From the NCBI RefSeq assembly GCF_000023325.1, contig NC_012785.1, forward strand, positions 558,001 to 622,000: a stretch of DNA of 64,000 nucleotides. The letters run 5' to 3'. The notes below the pieces were generated by a model, which saw only the letters and a list, made by a program, of their open reading frames with translations, ran no database searches and had not been told where the DNA came from. The position numbers and the translations under genes were made by a program. The number at the start of each line of letters is the position of its first letter. Positions within the stretch are counted from its first letter, which is position 1. Shown piece after piece: positions 11,700 through 40,735 of the stretch. This stretch comes from Kosmotoga olearia TBF 19.5.1 (GTDB lineage: Bacteria > Thermotogota > Thermotogae > Petrotogales > Kosmotogaceae).

Positions 11700-11940
11700 A
11701 AAGTTACGTACAACGTACAACCCACACCAACAACGGGGTTCATCTGCGTCTGCAAGCCTCAGCCTTCGAACGCCGCGTCACCAACTGCCAGCCTTGCAAG
11801 TGTCTGATATTTTTTCAACTGTGAAGCAGTTTGCCCCAACTCCCAAGGAGTTCGTAACAACCACGAAGTGGTTCGGGTCAACTCCGCAGGAGTTCGTGAC
11901 AATCCCGAAGGGATTCTTGTCGCTGCGAAGCAGCTCTTTC
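11700..11940. repeat. Composite repeat ending in a 21-bp-period palindrome array
   Basis: The gap 11568-11956 has no gene. It carries an ACAAC-rich motif (about 11708-11735), a block shared with other gaps (TTCGAACG, CTTGCAAG), then six inverted repeats starting at 11817, 11838, 11859, 11880, 11901 and 11922, exactly 21 bp apart. Arms include AACTCC/GGAGTT, AACCAC/GTGGTT, AATCCC/GGGATT and GCTGC/GCAGC, most around GAA or GCA. It lies just downstream of the broken subtilase gene. Confidence 0.9.
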
Positions 11941-11956
11941 GGACTTTCAATTTTAT

Positions 11957-13704
11957 CTATTTACGCTCCAGTTTATTGTAATATTCTTCAACCGCTGCTT
12001 CTTTGATCTCCAGCACCTTTTGGAGAAGGCTTCCTTCAAATACGGGTTTCAACCTATCAGTAATAATAGGTGAGAACTGAAATTCCACTGTGATGGTCTC
12101 ACCCGGTTCAACGGTAATAGCGGTGGGTGTTCCATCTTTTGGGTTGCCACCAGAGTAACCGTAATAACCGTAGAGGTCTCCAGAAGTTAGATACATATTG
12201 CGATCTACATCTCTCCATGCATAGATGTAAACACTACGCGCTATTACTTCCGTTAGCAAGAAATTCCCGCCCTCATCTGCACAGGTTATCGAATCTATAA
12301 CTCCTGTAACAGCGTCAACCGTCCACACAATGAAAGGCTCGTATCCTGTATCGTATGTCAGAGCCCTGTATGCGTCAACCAGACCTGCACCGTAATAGTT
12401 GTCAAAACCAGGTTCTCCAAGATCTTCCGCGGTATCTCTAAGGATTTTCCTTATCGTTTCAACACCGGTATAACCTTTGCTCATAAGAAGCGCTACAATT
12501 CCAGAAACGTGTGGGGCTGCCATGGATGTTCCCTGTAAAAACTCGTAAAGTTCCCCATCATTTGATATCCAGCATGTACTCAGAACTCCGTCTGGATTAC
12601 CATCTCCATTTGATCAACATCGAGGTCTCCGCCGGGAGCAACAACATCCAGTTCAGGCCCATAGTTGGAATACCAGGCTCTTTCTTTATCTAACCGAACT
12701 GCTCCTACCGCTATTGTTTCGGGGTACTTTGCCGGATACCTCAAACTCCCATTATCATTTCCGGCTGCGCAAACTACGACAACATCATTGTCGTATGCGT
12801 ACTTAATAGCATCGCGAATAATGGAGCTATCAGAGGGGCTGCCAAGGCTCATATTCAATACTTTCGCTCCATGTTCAACAGCGTACACGATACCCCTGGC
12901 AACATCAAATGATGTTCCGATCCCCGAATCATCAAGGACTCTAATCGGTAATATCCTAATACCGCTGCCACCCCAACAAACACCCGAAACGCCCTGGCTG
13001 TTATTGGTGAGGGCAGCTATGGTACCTGCAACATGTGTTCCATGGCTTATGATTTTTCCATCGTAGGACATCCCGGGATCCGTCGGATCTGGGTCATCAT
13101 CTATAAAATCGTAGCCTTCATCGTAGAATACTCCCTGCAAATCCGGATGGTCAAACCTTACTCCCGTATCGATAACAGCTACTACAGTTAGTGATGACCC
13201 CTTGGTAATCGACCAGGCAGCGGGAAGATTTATTAAAGAATAGTGCCACTGTTCAGGATAATACGGGTCATTAGGCGTCACTTCTGCCTGTGAAAAAAAG
13301 AGATAATTCGGTTCCACAAATTCGATTTCAGGAAGTCTTTTTAATTTTTCTATACTCTCCTCATTGGCTTTAATAAGAATATAATTTGTTTTACCATCTC
13401 TGAAGCTAAGCGTTTTCTGAATAGAACCTTTATCCATGCCAATACTCATTAATAAGCTGCTGGCTTTATTTCTATCTAACCAATTGTTGAACTTCACAAC
13501 ATATTCTCCAGGGACATAGTGTTCGGATTCAATTGGACTCGTTGAAGGTTCAATGACTAATACGCTTTGTTGGCCTCCAACAACGCTACCAACAAAAGGA
13601 GAAATACTTCCAAAAATTTTGCTCTTATAGAGGTTAAAAATACATCCTGACAGAAGAAAGAATACAAAAAACAATGAAATAACAAAAAAATCACGCTTCT
13701 TCAT
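11957..13704 (-). pseudogene. Subtilisin-like (S8) lipoprotein protease, frameshifted
   Basis: Exported serine protease split into two frames. The N-terminal 374 codons hold a lipoprotein signal (FFVFFLLSGC, Cys21), a propeptide (VPGEYVVKFNN), the catalytic Asp (VVAVIDTGVRFDHPDL, D179), the catalytic His (SHGTHVAGTIAA, H221) and the oxyanion Asn (AAGNDNG). The catalytic Ser (GTSMAAPHVSG) and a C-terminal beta domain are in the other frame. One extra A in the CAAATGG run (plus-strand T run 12609-12611) would restore DQNGDGNPDG and join the halves. It is either a recent mutation or a base-call error. The gene's 5' end overlaps the end of galA by 14 bases. Confidence 0.88.
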
Positions 13705-15599: not shown

Positions 15600-15876
15600 C
15601 ATACGGCGATAAAACCGTTGTCGGTTGTGGGTTGTACGTAAGAATCGAGAGTCCAAGAGCGTTAGAGGTATAGAGAGACCCACGCAGATCCTGACCCAAG
15701 TTCAGGATGACCGGCTTTATTTTCGAAACGTGTTTAATGATTTTCGCTTTTTTGGTTCTATCCGCCGAAGGCGCTTGTCAACTGCACAGCAGTTCATAAC
15801 AACCACGAAGTGGTTCGAAACAACTCCGCAGGAGTTCGTACCAATCCCGAAGGGATTTGTGCCGCTGCGCAGTAGC
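15600..15876 (+). repeat. Composite intergenic repeat with 21-bp palindrome array
   Basis: No gene lies between galA and the IS. The stretch shares its order of modules, in reverse orientation, with 40432-40710: a GTTGT-rich end, a TCGAGAGTCCAAG block, an ATCCTGA/TCAGGAT palindrome (about 15690-15713), a TTTTCGAAACGTGTTTAATGA block, then inverted repeats starting at 15780, 15801, 15822, 15843 and 15864, exactly 21 bp apart. The last unit has one arm mismatch. The IS3-type element begins just after it. Confidence 0.88.
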
Positions 15877-29247: not shown

Positions 29248-31622
29248 TGGCGCAGAAGTTCCAGCTACTGGAAAAGGCAGCGGTGAACCCTGAAAAGAAA
29301 GCGCAGATTCCGGATGTTCTCCCTGCAATCGCCACACGAACGAACATGCTTATCTACCCTTCACTGGTAATGCCGTTATATGTCGGTAGAGATAAATCAT
29401 TGACAGCTCTTGAAGAGTCGATAGCAAAATACGACCAGCTCATATTTTTAATTTCACAAAAAGACGTAACCACTGAGAACCCAACTGTGGAAGATCTCTA
29501 TAAAGTCGGAACCGTTGCACGTATCGTGCAGTTGATGAAAATGCCTGATGGCAATTACAAGATCCTCGTTGAAGGTCTCGCGCGTGCAAAGATAGTTGAC
29601 GTTGTTGAAAAAGATAATCTTTTCGTTTTTAAGATAGAGGTTTTGAAAGCTAAATATCGAAGGACGAAAGTTCTTGAAGCCCTCATCCGAAAAGTAAAAG
29701 AACTGGCGATGAAGTATGTCAACATGAGCCGTCGATATCCGGATGAATCCATAGTCGCGCTTGAAGATACCGCTAATCCTGATAAATTCGCAGATTTTGT
29801 CTCGTCTCTCCTGCCGTTGCCACTTGAAGAAAAGCAAAAACTCCTGGATGCTGTATCGCCCAAGGAGAGATTAGAGCTGCTTCTCGAGATTTTAACCCGG
29901 GAAGTAGAAATACTCAATCTTGAGGAAGAACTTGATAGAAGAGTAAAAGAGAAAATCGAGCAAAGCCAGAAAGAATACTATCTCCGTGAAAAAATGAAGG
30001 CTATACAGGAAGAGCTCGAAGGTGAAGAAGACATCGAAATAAAGGAACTAAAAGAAAAGCTCGAAAAAGGGAATTATCCAAAAGAGGTTAGGGACAAAGC
30101 CGAACAGGAGATATCAAGGCTTGAAAAGATGTCACCATACTCCGCTGAAGCTACGGTGATCAGAACCTATCTTGATTGGTTGCTAAATCTACCATGGACA
30201 GAGGAAACAGAAGATCACATCGATATAAAGGCTGTTAGAAAAACTCTCGACGCAAATCATTATGGTCTTGAGGATGTCAAGGAAAGGGTGCTTGAGTTCC
30301 TAGCCGCAAGGAATTTTTCCAAGAACCTTCGCGCACCAATTCTATGCCTGGTGGGACCACCGGGAGTTGGAAAAACATCTCTTGGTAGATCCATTGCAGA
30401 GGCTATGGGGCGAAAATTTGGAAGGATCTCCCTAGGTGGTATGAGGGATGAGGCCGAAATTAGAGGTCATCGCCGTACTTACGTTGGAGCCCTTCCGGGT
30501 AGAATCATTCAGATGATAAGAAAATTGAATTCTAAGAATCCTGTGATCGTTCTGGACGAGATCGACAAACTGGGTGTGAGTTTCCAGGGAGATCCAGCTT
30601 CAGCTTTGCTGGAGGTTCTCGATCCTGAACAGAACAACACCTTTACAGATCATTATCTTGAGGTTCCTTTTGATCTGTCAAAGGTTCTTTTCATAACAAC
30701 TGCAAATGTGCTCTATACTATTCCACCGGCACTCAGAGATCGTATGGAGATCATCGAGATACCGGGATATACCGATACTGAGAAACTTCATATCGCTAAG
30801 GATTACATACTCCCGAAACTCTATGAAGAGTATTCTATAACGAAGCGAAAAGTGAATATCACCGAGGGTGCTATAAAAAAGATAATAACTGAGTACACCA
30901 GAGAAGCTGGTGTGAGAAACCTCGATAGAAATCTTTCTAAGATTATCAGGAGAGCAATCTTGAAACTTTCTGAAGGTCAGAAGAGCGTGAAGGTAACCAA
31001 AAATAATATCGAGGAGTACCTTGGAATACCGAAGTATAAAGAAAGCGATTTAAGAAAGCGTCCGGAAATTGGGGTTTGTACAGGTCTGGCATGGACGGCT
31101 GTTGGCGGTGAAATAATGCACATTGAGGTGCTTCCTATCCCCGGAAAAGGGAAATTCATCACCACAGGACAGCTCGGTGATGTTATGAAGGAATCGGCAC
31201 AGATAGCGCTCAGCCTTGCCAAAAAACTGTGCGACGGCAAAAAATACGTTAAGGTATTTGAAACGAACGATTTTCATATTCATGTCCCGGAAGGTGCGGT
31301 TCCGAAAGATGGTCCCTCCGCCGGAGTAACACTGTTGACAGCTATCATTTCTGCCGTAACAGGAACCCCAATAAAGCATGATGTTGCTATGACCGGTGAA
31401 ATAACGCTGAGAGGGCGCGTTTTACCAATCGGCGGATTAAAAGAAAAGCTTATGGCAGCTTATCGTGCGGGAATCAAAACAGTTATACTTCCAGAAACTA
31501 ACAAAAGAGATCTCGAGAAAGTTCCAGATGAAATAAAAGACAAGCTAAAATTTGTCTTCGTGGAAACAGTTAAAGAGGTCATTGAGGAGGCTCTGGTAAA
31601 GGATGTTGATAAAAAAGGTTGA
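29247..31622 (+). CDS. lon: ATP-dependent protease Lon
   Basis: 791-aa Lon. The N-terminal substrate domain occupies about residues 20-200, a coiled coil follows, the AAA+ module has Walker A ([20 protein letters not shown]) and Walker B ([12 protein letters not shown]), and the C-terminal protease has the catalytic Ser ([15 protein letters not shown]) and Lys ([20 protein letters not shown]). I use ATG 29247, eight bases after GGAGG (AGGAGGTGAAATA precedes it). Its last 20 bases overlap engB. It degrades misfolded and regulatory proteins in the cytoplasm. Confidence 0.97.
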
Positions 31623-32175
31623 ACTCGTCAAAACCGCATTCAAACCCGGAGATTACCCTGAGCCTGTTAAAAGAGAAGTTGCTTTTGCCGGAAGGTCGAA
31701 CGTCGGGAAATCTACATTGCTAAATACCCTTTTCCAGAGGAAATTAGCACATACAAGTTCCAAACCCGGGAAAACCAGATCTATAAACTTCTATCTGGTC
31801 AATTCAAAGTATTACTTCGTGGACCTTCCAGGTTACGGTTTTGCAAGTGCATCCAAACAAGAACTTGCAAGATGGAAAGAACTGATAGAAGACTATTTTT
31901 CTACCCGTGATAACCTGAACCTTGTCACAATCCTAATGGATTCAAGGCATCCTATGCAGAAAAACGATTACAAAATGCTCGAATGGATAAAAGATTATTC
32001 AATACCTTTTATCGTAGTCTTGACTAAAACCGACAAACTTTCGGGAAACGAATTGAAAAAGATGATCCAGATTTATGAGAAAGAATTAAAGTTATGGGGC
32101 TCACCACCAATCATTCCCTTTTCTGCAAAAACAAGGAGAGGGCTCAACGAACTGTTGAAAATTTTGATACCGTGA
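31603..32175 (+). CDS. engB: EngB/YihA/YsxC ribosome-biogenesis GTPase
   Basis: 190-aa TRAFAC GTPase needed for assembly of the large ribosomal subunit. G1 is FAGRSNVGKSTLLNTL, G3 is YFVDLPGYGFA, G4 is VLTKTDKLSGNE and G5 is IPFSAKTRRGLNELL. It starts inside lon and is the last gene of the glpK-tsaE-lon-engB run; lon-engB adjacency is common in bacteria. Its TGA is followed at once by the first palindrome of a hairpin array. Confidence 0.95.
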   Translation: MLIKKVELVKTAFKPGDYPEPVKREVAFAGRSNVGKSTLLNTLFQRKLAHTSSKPGKTRSINFYLVNSKYYFVDLPGYGFASASKQELARWKELIEDYFSTRDNLNLVTILMDSRHPMQKNDYKMLEWIKDYSIPFIVVLTKTDKLSGNELKKMIQIYEKELKLWGSPPIIPFSAKTRRGLNELLKILIP

Positions 32176-32328
32176 GCCCGGCTACGCCGGGGGTAAGCAC
32201 GATTCCGTCGTGGGTTAGCACGCTGGCGCGTGGGTAAGCTTGGCTGCGCCAAGGGTAAGCCCAGCTGCGCTGGGGGTGCGAACCGCTTCACGGTTGGTAC
32301 GCACCTTCGGTGGAAAAAAACAAAAGCG
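32176..32328 (+). repeat. Array of divergent short palindromes with GGGTAAGC linkers, about 21-bp period
   Basis: Directly after the engB stop come seven short inverted repeats. Unit starts are at 32176, 32197, 32218, 32238 and 32259, then less regular ones at about 32280 and 32301. Arms are CCCGGC/GCCGGG, CACGA/TCGTG, CACGC/GCGTG, CTTGGC/GCCAAG, CCCAGC/GCTGGG, ACCG/CGGT and CACC/GGTG. Linkers are nearly constant (GGGTAAGC or GGGTTAGC), while arms differ in sequence yet stay complementary. Confidence 0.9.
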
Positions 32329-32364
32329 GGTATAGGGTCTGGGGTCTAGGGTTTAGAAAAAGAG

Positions 32365-32562
32365 ACGCACAACGCACAACGTACAACCAACAACGGCTTT
32401 TATCACTGCACAGCAGTTCGTAACAACCACAAAGTGGTTCGAAACAACTCCGCAGGAGTTCGTGACAATCCCGAAGGGATTCGTATCTGCCGCGCAGCGG
32501 CTCTCTTGATTCTTTCGGGCTCTCGGTTCTCGATTTTTCCGTACAACCTACAACCTATGTTA
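32365..32562. repeat. Composite repeat with second 21-bp palindrome array
   Basis: Holds an ACAAC-rich motif (about 32366-32393), then inverted repeats starting at 32404, 32425, 32446, 32467 and 32489 (arms ACTGC/GCAGT, AACCAC/GTGGTT, AACTCC/GGAGTT, AATCCC/GGGATT, GCCGC/GCGGC; centres 21 bp apart), then CTCGGTTCTCGA and CGTACAACCTACAACC up to the GGDEF gene stop. Nothing coding is seen between engB and that gene. Confidence 0.9.
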
Positions 32563-34044
32563 TTAACCATTTAATACACCAAAAAACCTGTACTTCTTTT
32601 TGGTATCGGAGGATTTAGCGATCCTCAAAGCCTCAAATGCTTTAGTCATTAAAACGTCCGGATTGTGTCCATCTTTTGGAAACATGGCTATTCCTGATGT
32701 CGCATTCAGAAAGAGTTTGAATTTTCCAAGCTCGATGGGGTCCTTAATAGAAACGGTGATCTTATCGATCAATTTCACGACATCTTCTTCTTCTGAAACC
32801 AATGCGATTATTCCGAATTCATCTCCTCCAACTCTACCGATAATATCGTCTTTTCTGAGAACTCTCCTCAAACGCTCCCCAAATCTTTTTAAAACGTTAT
32901 CAGCAAGAACCGGACCAAGAAGCTGATTTACCGAGGTAAAGTCATCGATGTCGAGAAAAATTAGCGCCAATTTTTTGTTTTCTTTCTCAGAAAACTCAAT
33001 CATGTAGTCAAGGGTTTTCAAGAATTCTTTGCGTTCCAGTAATCCTGTAATTGGATCTCTTACTATTTGAGATTGTTTAATCTCCAAATTTTTAAACTCC
33101 TTTAATGCTTTGAGTTGGATGGAGGCCATCACATATCCGATCATAATTATGGCAAGAAAAACTACATCATAAACAAATATACGTTTAAGAACTACTAGCT
33201 GCCCTCTTTTGATTTCTGCGTCAGGATATAAGGTCAAGATACCTATCATTCTATTTTCAAGAAGATTGTCTATTTTAATTGTGCTTAAAGTCCATATCCC
33301 TTCAGTGCTTAACCATTGGGTTTGTCCATTTCTTAATATATCTTCCTTTGGGATAATTGGCACTAGTATGTCAGTGTATAAATTACGAAAAGAAACTTCT
33401 GAATTCTTTGAGAAAACTCCAAAGACCAGATCGTTGTTCCTCAAAAAATTCCTGAACACTTTTCTTAACCAATCTTCCGAATGCAAAAGAAAAATCGTAC
33501 CCACTTTATCTTTTCCATTGTAAAGCGGTGCTCCAAAAGTTATCCAAAGTTTTTCTTCAAAATTTAAGGGACTGATATAAATAAAATCAATAACCGTTTC
33601 TGTTGATTCACTTATAGCATTTGTGGATATCAACTCCTGTATGATTTCCTCGATTTTTTTGCAATATATCTGAGCATGTTTTTGTAATACCTTTCCGGAA
33701 TTATCAACTATGTAAACTTTGGCTCCAGGATCATCTTCAAATCTAGAATCAGTAAACGCAATTAATAACTGCTTCACTCTTTCTTCGTCAAGAATTTTCA
33801 AATCAAGTAATCCTGCAAAAAACTTAAATTCTGCAATTTCTTTTTCCAGGGTTTTTTCGAGAATCATTGAAAAACTTTCAGCTTTACTTTTTTCTGAAAG
33901 CTTGAACTCATCCAATTTAGTTCTGAATTCAACAGAGTAGCATATGATCGAACTGATAATCAAAATAGAGATAAGAACTACCAGCACTGAAATCTGGATT
34001 TTTTTACTTTTTAAAAAGCATTTATTCAGCTCATTCATTTTCAT
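32563..34044 (-). CDS. Membrane-anchored GGDEF diguanylate cyclase
   Basis: 493-aa inner-membrane sensor. One membrane helix near residues 18-36, an extracytoplasmic sensor of about 230 residues, a second helix near 285-305, then a GGDEF domain. Catalytic motif GRVGGDEFGIIA is complete, and an inhibitory RxxD site (RKDD) sits five residues before it, as in product-inhibited cyclases. It should make cyclic di-GMP from GTP in response to an unknown outside signal. There is no EAL domain and no obvious partner nearby. The 3' end abuts repeat sequence. Confidence 0.9.
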   Translation of the reverse strand: MKMNELNKCFLKSKKIQISVLVVLISILIISSIICYSVEFRTKLDEFKLSEKSKAESFSMILEKTLEKEIAEFKFFAGLLDLKILDEERVKQLLIAFTDSRFEDDPGAKVYIVDNSGKVLQKHAQIYCKKIEEIIQELISTNAISESTETVIDFIYISPLNFEEKLWITFGAPLYNGKDKVGTIFLLHSEDWLRKVFRNFLRNNDLVFGVFSKNSEVSFRNLYTDILVPIIPKEDILRNGQTQWLSTEGIWTLSTIKIDNLLENRMIGILTLYPDAEIKRGQLVVLKRIFVYDVVFLAIIMIGYVMASIQLKALKEFKNLEIKQSQIVRDPITGLLERKEFLKTLDYMIEFSEKENKKLALIFLDIDDFTSVNQLLGPVLADNVLKRFGERLRRVLRKDDIIGRVGGDEFGIIALVSEEEDVVKLIDKITVSIKDPIELGKFKLFLNATSGIAMFPKDGHNPDVLMTKAFEALRIAKSSDTKKKYRFFGVLNG

Positions 34045-40409: not shown

Positions 40410-40735
40410 AGAGTCCGAGAGAATCAAAAGAGCCGCTGCGCGGCAGATACGAATCCCTTCGGGATTGTCACGAACTCCTGCAGAGTTGTTTCGAACCACT
40501 TCGTGGTTGTTACGAACTGCTGTGCAGTTGACATGTGCCTTCGGCGGAATAGAACCCAAAAAGCGAATATCATTAAACACGTTTCGAAAATAAATCCGGT
40601 CATCCTGAACTTGTTTCAGGATCTGTAAGGGTCTCTCTATACCTCTAACGCCCTTGGACTCTCGGTTCTCGATTATCACGAACAACCTACAACGCACAAC
40701 CTACAACGTTTCTTGATTTTTAGATCTCGGATTCT
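40410..40735 (-). repeat. Composite intergenic repeat with 21-bp palindrome array (inverse of the 15.6-kb copy)
   Basis: No gene lies in 40199-40760. Inverted repeats centred at 40438, 40459, 40480, 40501 and 40522 are exactly 21 bp apart (arms GCCGC/GCGGC, AATCCC/GGGATT, AACTC/GAGTT, AACCAC/GTGGTT, AACTGC/GCAGTT; loops TGC, TTC, TGT). Then come GCC-TTC-GGC, the TCATTAAACACGTTTCGAAA block, ATCCTGAA...TTCAGGAT, ACTCTCGGTTCTCGA, and ACAACCTACAACG twice. Module order matches 15600-15876 read on the other strand. Confidence 0.9.

Follow-up and report, generated by a model that had tools for sequence, protein, structure and literature searches.

The gene for an EngB-type GTPase in Kosmotoga olearia TBF 19.5.1 (31603..32175, + strand; taken from the ORF list, with an MMR_HSR1 domain) is directly abutted at its stop codon by an array of short hairpins whose arms differ from unit to unit within a near-constant frame, and the locus raises the question of whether that geometry matters in itself and, if so, whether in DNA or in RNA. 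The window analyzed here – the whole stretch of 64,000 nucleotides, to which coordinates refer unless otherwise stated – lies in a genome consisting of a single contig of 2,302,126 bases. A reading made from the sequence only had placed units at 32176, 32197, 32218, 32238 and 32259, had regarded their arms and those of an array at 11.8 kb as two unrelated sequence sets, and had raised the possibility that engB mRNA ends inside the array. Our analysis indicates that the geometry matters, most likely for the folding of single-stranded DNA, that the array's position behind engB is incidental, and that arrays of this type are REP-like, an abundant and unusual repeat that is probably constrained at the DNA level.

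The array is real, but its hairpins start one base later than had been read (at 32177, 32198, 32219, 32239 and 32260), and there is a sixth at 32281. Together the six span 32177–32295 at a pitch of 20–21, and a seventh, 4-bp hairpin (32302..32312, − strand; CACC-TTC-GGTG) lies at the array end. All are assigned to the minus strand, where a full unit consists of an arm, C, GNA, G and the second arm. Unit 1 (32177..32191) is CCCGGC-TAC-GCCGGG on the plus strand, hence C(GTA)G on the minus strand, and is followed by a type II linker (32192..32197; GGTAAG on the plus strand). Also as written on the plus strand, unit 2 (32198..32212; CACGA-TTCCG-TCGTG) has a mismatch at the inner pair, unit 3 (32219..32232; CACGC-TGGC-GCGTG) has a tetraloop, and units 4 (32239..32253; CTTGGC-TGC-GCCAAG) and 5 (32260..32274; CCCAGC-TGC-GCTGGG) have triloops. 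Unit 6 (32281..32295; AACCG-CTTCA-CGGTT) belongs to the other, type I, set, and its junction linker (CGCACC on the minus strand) is of mixed type; the engB array is a hybrid, type II in its first five units and type I in the sixth. Each of the seven units is predicted by a thermodynamic model to fold alone as DNA.

The linker and spacing pattern GGGTWAGC-N13-GGGTWAGC (up to two mismatches) has 42 matches in the genome against one for the reversed pattern, BLAST with two of the window arrays finds 32 and 46 genomic places, and a three-unit covariance model gives at least 117 matches; covariance-model counts are lower bounds throughout, because candidates were scored in part in each genome (at most 92 or 54). 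From the DNA examined we collected 78 distinct arrays of at least three units, with 293 units in total, leaving out clusters with fewer than two GNA/TNC loops (including L118:11356 and L123:13095 of 19 clusters, and 33069 in the window). The unit plan is a 5–6 bp stem, a C-G closing pair, a GNA triloop on one strand (present in 235/293 units) and a linker of 6–7 nt, the linker being 6 nt long at 179 of 220 junctions, 7 nt at 37 and 5 nt at 4. A constant linker within a 21-bp design had been proposed; the linker is indeed near constant, but units with 5-bp stems give a pitch of 20, and the 21-bp pitch (177/220 junctions) is about as constant as linker length.

Three types are distinguished on the GNA strand: type I (AACTGC, AACCAC, AACTCC, ACCGGC, AATCCC; CGTAAC-like linkers), type II (CACTCC, CCTGAC, CCCAGC, CTTGGC, CCCGGC, CACGC; linker CTTACC, with ACC as the final three bases in 27 of 27 length-6 junctions) and type III (CGCAAC, CGTGAC, CTGAGC, CTGGGC; linker CATAGC). 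The supposed two unrelated sets in fact intergrade, as types I and II share the C(GNA)G core, the sixth unit behind engB comes from the other set, and mixed arrays are found at other sites too. Unit order is polar (AACCAC precedes AACTCC 33 times, with 1 reversal; AACTCC precedes AATCCC 17:0, and AATCCC precedes GCCGC 14:0), and neighboring units never have the same arm (0/220, with 20.6 expected under independent draw), for which common array descent may be the cause.

Six clusters of three or more hairpins are present in the window, one of which (33069–33130) is not of the array kind; among 20 shuffled windows, 17 had no cluster and three had one. Besides the engB array these include four type I arrays: the six-unit array noted before at 11.8 kb (11817..11934, +), a four-unit array (15780..15857, +), a second array in the gap between engB and a convergent GGDEF gene (32563–34044), and a five-unit array at 40432..40529 (−). 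The second array in the engB gap (32405..32501, +; ACTGC, AACCAC, AACTCC, AATCCC, GCCGC) is oriented opposite to the engB array, and its unit order recurs on the other strand in the 40432..40529 array, with 97% identity. A subtilase-like frame at 11957–13704 on the minus strand appears by eye to be split (ORFs 11957–12523 and 12580–13704).

Arrays are embedded, together with other repeat modules, in larger mosaics. Runs of 7-base repeats (ACAACGT/ACAACCT, TCTCGGA/TTCTCGG) flank many of them (32365–32395, 32540–32560, 40660–40720 and other gaps), the relation 21 = 3 x 7 to the array pitch possibly being chance, and GTCATCCTGAAC..TTCAGGAT palindromes, many of them dimeric, lie next to arrays (window ~40597–40630; flanks of L034, L116 and L126). 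Array orientation is uniform only within local islands, and the GC skew of the genome samples is irregular; at 1.34–1.40 Mb of the genome the skew goes from −0.08 to +0.21 and array orientation from + to −, a flip that could mark a rearrangement.

That geometry is conserved while arm letters change, as the sequence-only reading had it, is borne out by the 42 places selected on the linker. Watson-Crick pairs occur at positions 2-14, 3-13, 4-12 and 5-11 in 36, 40, 35 and 36 of these, where the highest values among 1000 shuffles are 27, 32, 28 and 30; pair 6-10, mostly a fixed C-G, is paired in 36 of 42 where shuffles average 35.4, and the selecting pattern itself sets pair 1-15. Pairing is complete in 25 of the 42, with seven arm types, and two of the sites, at about 292 kb and 1002 kb in the genome, resemble chance matches and are included in the counts. 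Alignment A1 leaves out two rows shifted in register; covariation is also seen in the stem-selected alignment A2, whose pair counts are biased by its selection (39 of 90 extracted stretches, each with at least 5/6 pairs). Among units flanked by two intact units 433 of 444 cells are paired, and mismatched units of both directions occur. C(GNA)G is an exceptionally stable DNA mini-hairpin, and systematic samples totaling 400 kb contain 62 such triloop hairpins with 6-bp stems, where shuffles lead one to expect 2.2; the same count gives 11 against 2.2 in Kosmotoga pacifica (G002), 4 against 1.2 in G009 and 7 against 0.4 in G022, and there is thus some enrichment beyond array-bearing genomes.

The compensatory changes anticipated between arrays appear between paralogous units, but in three orthologous array pairs (23 hairpins, 132 stem cells) 128 cells are unchanged, three have one-sided changes and one has a two-sided change, which sits in a unit of a swapped block. 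Covariation is therefore a matter of paralogous units, with compensation by point changes at a single site not yet observed, and the orthologous comparison indicates that cassettes are exchanged in blocks, the end of one array having been swapped as a block between orthologs.

The family is dispersed: abundant in its own genome, with dozens of matches in two genomes of the same family and few elsewhere in the phylum. Among 61 genomes at least 43 model matches are found in G006, 27 in K. pacifica, 11 in G008 and 0–8 in the remainder, and a scan of 103 genomes of the phylum finds at least 14 with one or more. A clear engB ortholog (E 1.5e-51 or better) is present in 18 of 19 genomes searched, and no array of this kind was detected within 1.5 kb on each side of the engB loci of 18 other genomes of the class (G001–G014, G017, G022, G041, G046); G002 and G008 have the next gene directly behind engB, and the engB-bearing contig of the close relative L067 has no array cluster. 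Six syntenic intergenic gaps compared between the same-genus genomes G006 and G002 have arrays in both genomes in one case and in one genome only in five, and the five gaps without an array in G002 measure 18, 67, 299, 358 and 722 bases there against 546, 440, 539, 821 and 625 in G006. In three Mesotoga-like genomes (so labeled from kinship) a single array rides in a 2-kb AbiEi/AbiEii block that is 96–98% identical; this toxin-antitoxin block, with the array behind it (L199, L200, L201), is found at differing places in the three, and was likely transferred horizontally, carrying the array along as a passenger. In three genomes of other genera or families, G004, G041 and G099, the matches fall on short contigs (L215, L216, L278) whose identity to K. 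olearia sites is 94%, 99.5% and 87%, respectively; these are probably mis-binned contigs of close strains. One type I pattern, used to look for a viral origin, gave 0 matches in viral contigs.

A search with PF01797 identifies two Y1 transposase genes in the K. olearia genome (57.5 and 58.6 bits; cut-off 23). Over 839 bp, a stretch that takes in degraded array units immediately behind the stop codon, the two share 95% identity, and one copy has a five-unit array 87 bp downstream; array units thus lie 3' of both copies, and none is found in the 5' flanks of either. Both genes have the Y1_Tnp core with HUH and Y---NP that defines a RAYT (TnpA-REP, class 2), Y---NP being given as the class 2 signature in a passage of PMC6006769, and these residues are invariant in 11 of 11 relatives. 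The NCBIfam model for REP-associated tyrosine transposases (NF047646) scores 68 and 67 bits, under its cut-off of 80, and phmmer found no relative of solved structure for the RAYT at E 0.001.

Of 61 relatives, 8 have a RAYT and 9 have array BLAST hits, with 6 common to both. Within the family (17 genomes) BLAST hits occur in 6 of 8 genomes with a RAYT and 1 of 9 without, and model matches in 7 of 8 and 3 of 9 (G004, G008, G011), kinship confounding both comparisons; no RAYT was found in G008 with its 11 matches (genome 83% complete), and G010 and G016 have a RAYT with 1 and 0 matches, respectively. No array lies in the 350-bp 3' flank of the K. pacifica RAYT or alongside most RAYTs outside K. 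olearia, including most Mesotoga-like ones, and in two Mesotoga-like genomes a fragment of a RAYT 3' end comes after the array, with the layout unchanged between the two (read by eye). Among the matches listed, G000 has 1 of 91 array sites within 10 kb of a RAYT (rotation mean 1.3) and 15 within 50 kb (mean 4.5; 0.9% of rotations), and G002 has 3 of 19 within 10 kb (0.9%). Clustering of arrays near RAYT is modest, and the link between RAYT and arrays is a suggestive one.

We favor the reading that what lies behind engB is one copy of a dispersed, REP-like repeat whose units are maintained so that they can form single-stranded hairpins and which RAYT probably handles, an account whose chances we judge to be evenly poised. 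Each cassette of ~21 bp – a perfect palindrome of 5–6 bp, closed by C-G around a GNA triloop, with a half-linker on each side, set head-to-tail in rows – would be conserved for its capacity to self-fold as single-stranded DNA. A RAYT-like Y1 (HUH) transposase, or a recent ancestor of it, would recognize the loop, the perfect stem and the linker; we infer that it acts on the arrays and that single-stranded cutting and strand transfer, with recombination between copies, could spread arrays and swap cassettes. Mismatched cassettes would leave circulation, and we propose that their loss yields covarying arms without selection on RNA.

The foremost alternative, possible in our judgment and yet doubtful, is that these are passive repeats, disseminated through duplicated segments, horizontal transfer and gene conversion between intergenic mosaics, their palindromes kept perfect by template switching at replication, with neither transposase nor function. 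The embedding of arrays in larger repeat mosaics, the near-identical AbiEi/AbiEii block with its array, the block exchange of an array end between orthologs and the mismatched units in both directions are all consistent with it, and as some arrays move with larger segments, passive spread is real. By itself, however, it leaves unexplained the fixed GNA loop and linker set and the RAYT copies that carry array units. A further reading, tentative and rather unlikely, makes the arrays a distinct class of polar, head-to-tail, swappable cassettes, in which a Kosmotoga RAYT with no GTAG requirement would read C(GNA)G plus linker, and differing arms would ensure self-folding and stop slippage.

It is quite improbable that the arrays act at the RNA level, as hairpins in 3' UTRs with a role in mRNA termination, protection or processing, and we rejected an RNA element on strand, wobble, terminator and synteny tests. 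A first set of gene calls, which put 43 of 78 arrays inside ORFs, was replaced by codon-scored calls, those ORFs apparently being mostly frames kept open by the 21-bp period; with ORFs of more than 15% array left uncalled, 0 of 78 arrays lie in called genes, an exclusion that would also pass over any genuine small gene with an array inside it. For the 46 arrays with a called gene on each side (the other 32 were dropped), the sense strand of the nearest gene carries TNC in 25 and GNA in 21. Where the closest gene boundary is a 3' one, TNC is in sense in 20 of 26 cases, engB included, as 3' UTR elements might be, but GNA is in sense in 15 of 20 at 5' starts; the same array end is turned towards the nearest gene in 35 of 46, and it is therefore position that is biased, with an array end facing the gene, and not transcript sense. 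Moreover, 24 arrays from the samples, the window and the RAYT stretch comprise 11 between tandem genes, 7 between divergent genes, 5 between convergent genes and 1 at an edge, and the divergent cases, like the engB orthologs that have no array, argue against a role in 3' UTRs. G-T and A-C mismatches are about equally frequent at pairs 2-6 of the linker-selected set (8 and 9), so there is no excess that would reflect RNA wobble tolerance of one strand. The RNA fold of the engB-array region is unremarkable (z = −1.23), and no intrinsic terminator (a G+C-rich hairpin then a T run) was found at 32177–32330; one terminator-like site lies in the neighboring array (32489–32501), near the shuffle mean of 0.7. 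Rfam models at gathering thresholds find two tRNAs only in the window, and the arrays match no RNA family. The idea of the array as a functional 3' element in which engB mRNA terminates thus finds neither a terminator-like site, nor a strand preference, nor a wobble excess, nor conservation at the engB site to lean on. The strand, wobble and fold results favor a DNA-level constraint, and they carry a warning that strong covariation with constant geometry need not imply RNA function. A double-stranded protein-binding array (a nucleoid or gyrase site) with a spacing of two helical turns would suit the prevailing pitch of 21 but is hardly credible, the arm letters being free with pairing alone kept, and helical phasing as the main constraint was rejected because linker length is held while pitch follows stem length, down to 20 with shorter stems.

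REPs rank among the most frequent repeats in bacteria, and for the questions of how they spread and why their stems covary, a thermophile with three linker types, ordered and very short perfect palindromes, and two near-identical RAYT copies offers natural variants that separate the roles of loop, linker and stem. Literature searches found no description of these arrays in titles, abstracts and passages, and inclusion in supplementary tables is possible. The arrays are REPs in the broad sense – short (15-bp palindromes), palindromic, extragenic and in many copies, as counted above – and they resemble REPs with their RAYT/TnpA-REP transposases (REPtrons), especially the short perfect palindromes of group 3, in being high-copy short extragenic palindromes with small loops and stems that stay paired as letters change, in a genome with a RAYT-type transposase (HUH, Y---NP) whose copies have repeat units beside them. 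In contrast to canonical REPs they lack the GT[AG]G tag, which is found 0–2 nt 5' of the stem in 4 cases in both flanks of 293 units; their units are head-to-tail with different arms in fixed order, whereas head-to-tail dimers are described as absent or rare among tagged REPs in an excerpt of PMC3733652; and, unlike in REPtrons, neither RAYT copy lies between inverted REPs on both sides. Mosaic intergenic clusters and regularly spaced palindromes are shared with BIMEs and REPINs, but BIMEs alternate in orientation and REPINs are inverted pairs (passages of PMC2817692 and PMC6006769), whereas GNA loops stay on one strand in the arrays examined, with one unit of opposite loop (TTC) in L022. CRISPR arrays are alike in regular spacing, but the Kosmotoga arrays have a near-constant linker between palindromes that differ among units.

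CGTC-3 REPs are listed for K. olearia and M. prima in the part of Di Nocera 2013 (PMC3733652) that treats them, which also describes K. olearia tyrosine transposases without flanking CGTC repeats; the GTCATCCTGAAC..TTCAGGAT palindromes that adjoin many arrays are probably these elements, and although they share a genome, the arrays fit neither the 9-bp stem nor the CGTC tag of CGTC-3. RepRanger includes Mesotoga prima, and Thermotogota REP motifs are there said to resemble no others (PMC12306157). A Stenotrophomonas TnpA-REP of group 3 uses an 8-bp perfect palindrome with a 3-nt loop and, in the passages of PMC8266576 that report this, is crippled by loop reversal or stem mismatch while most stem letters matter little, which is the pattern expected if only loop, linker and pairing count, as in the Kosmotoga arrays.
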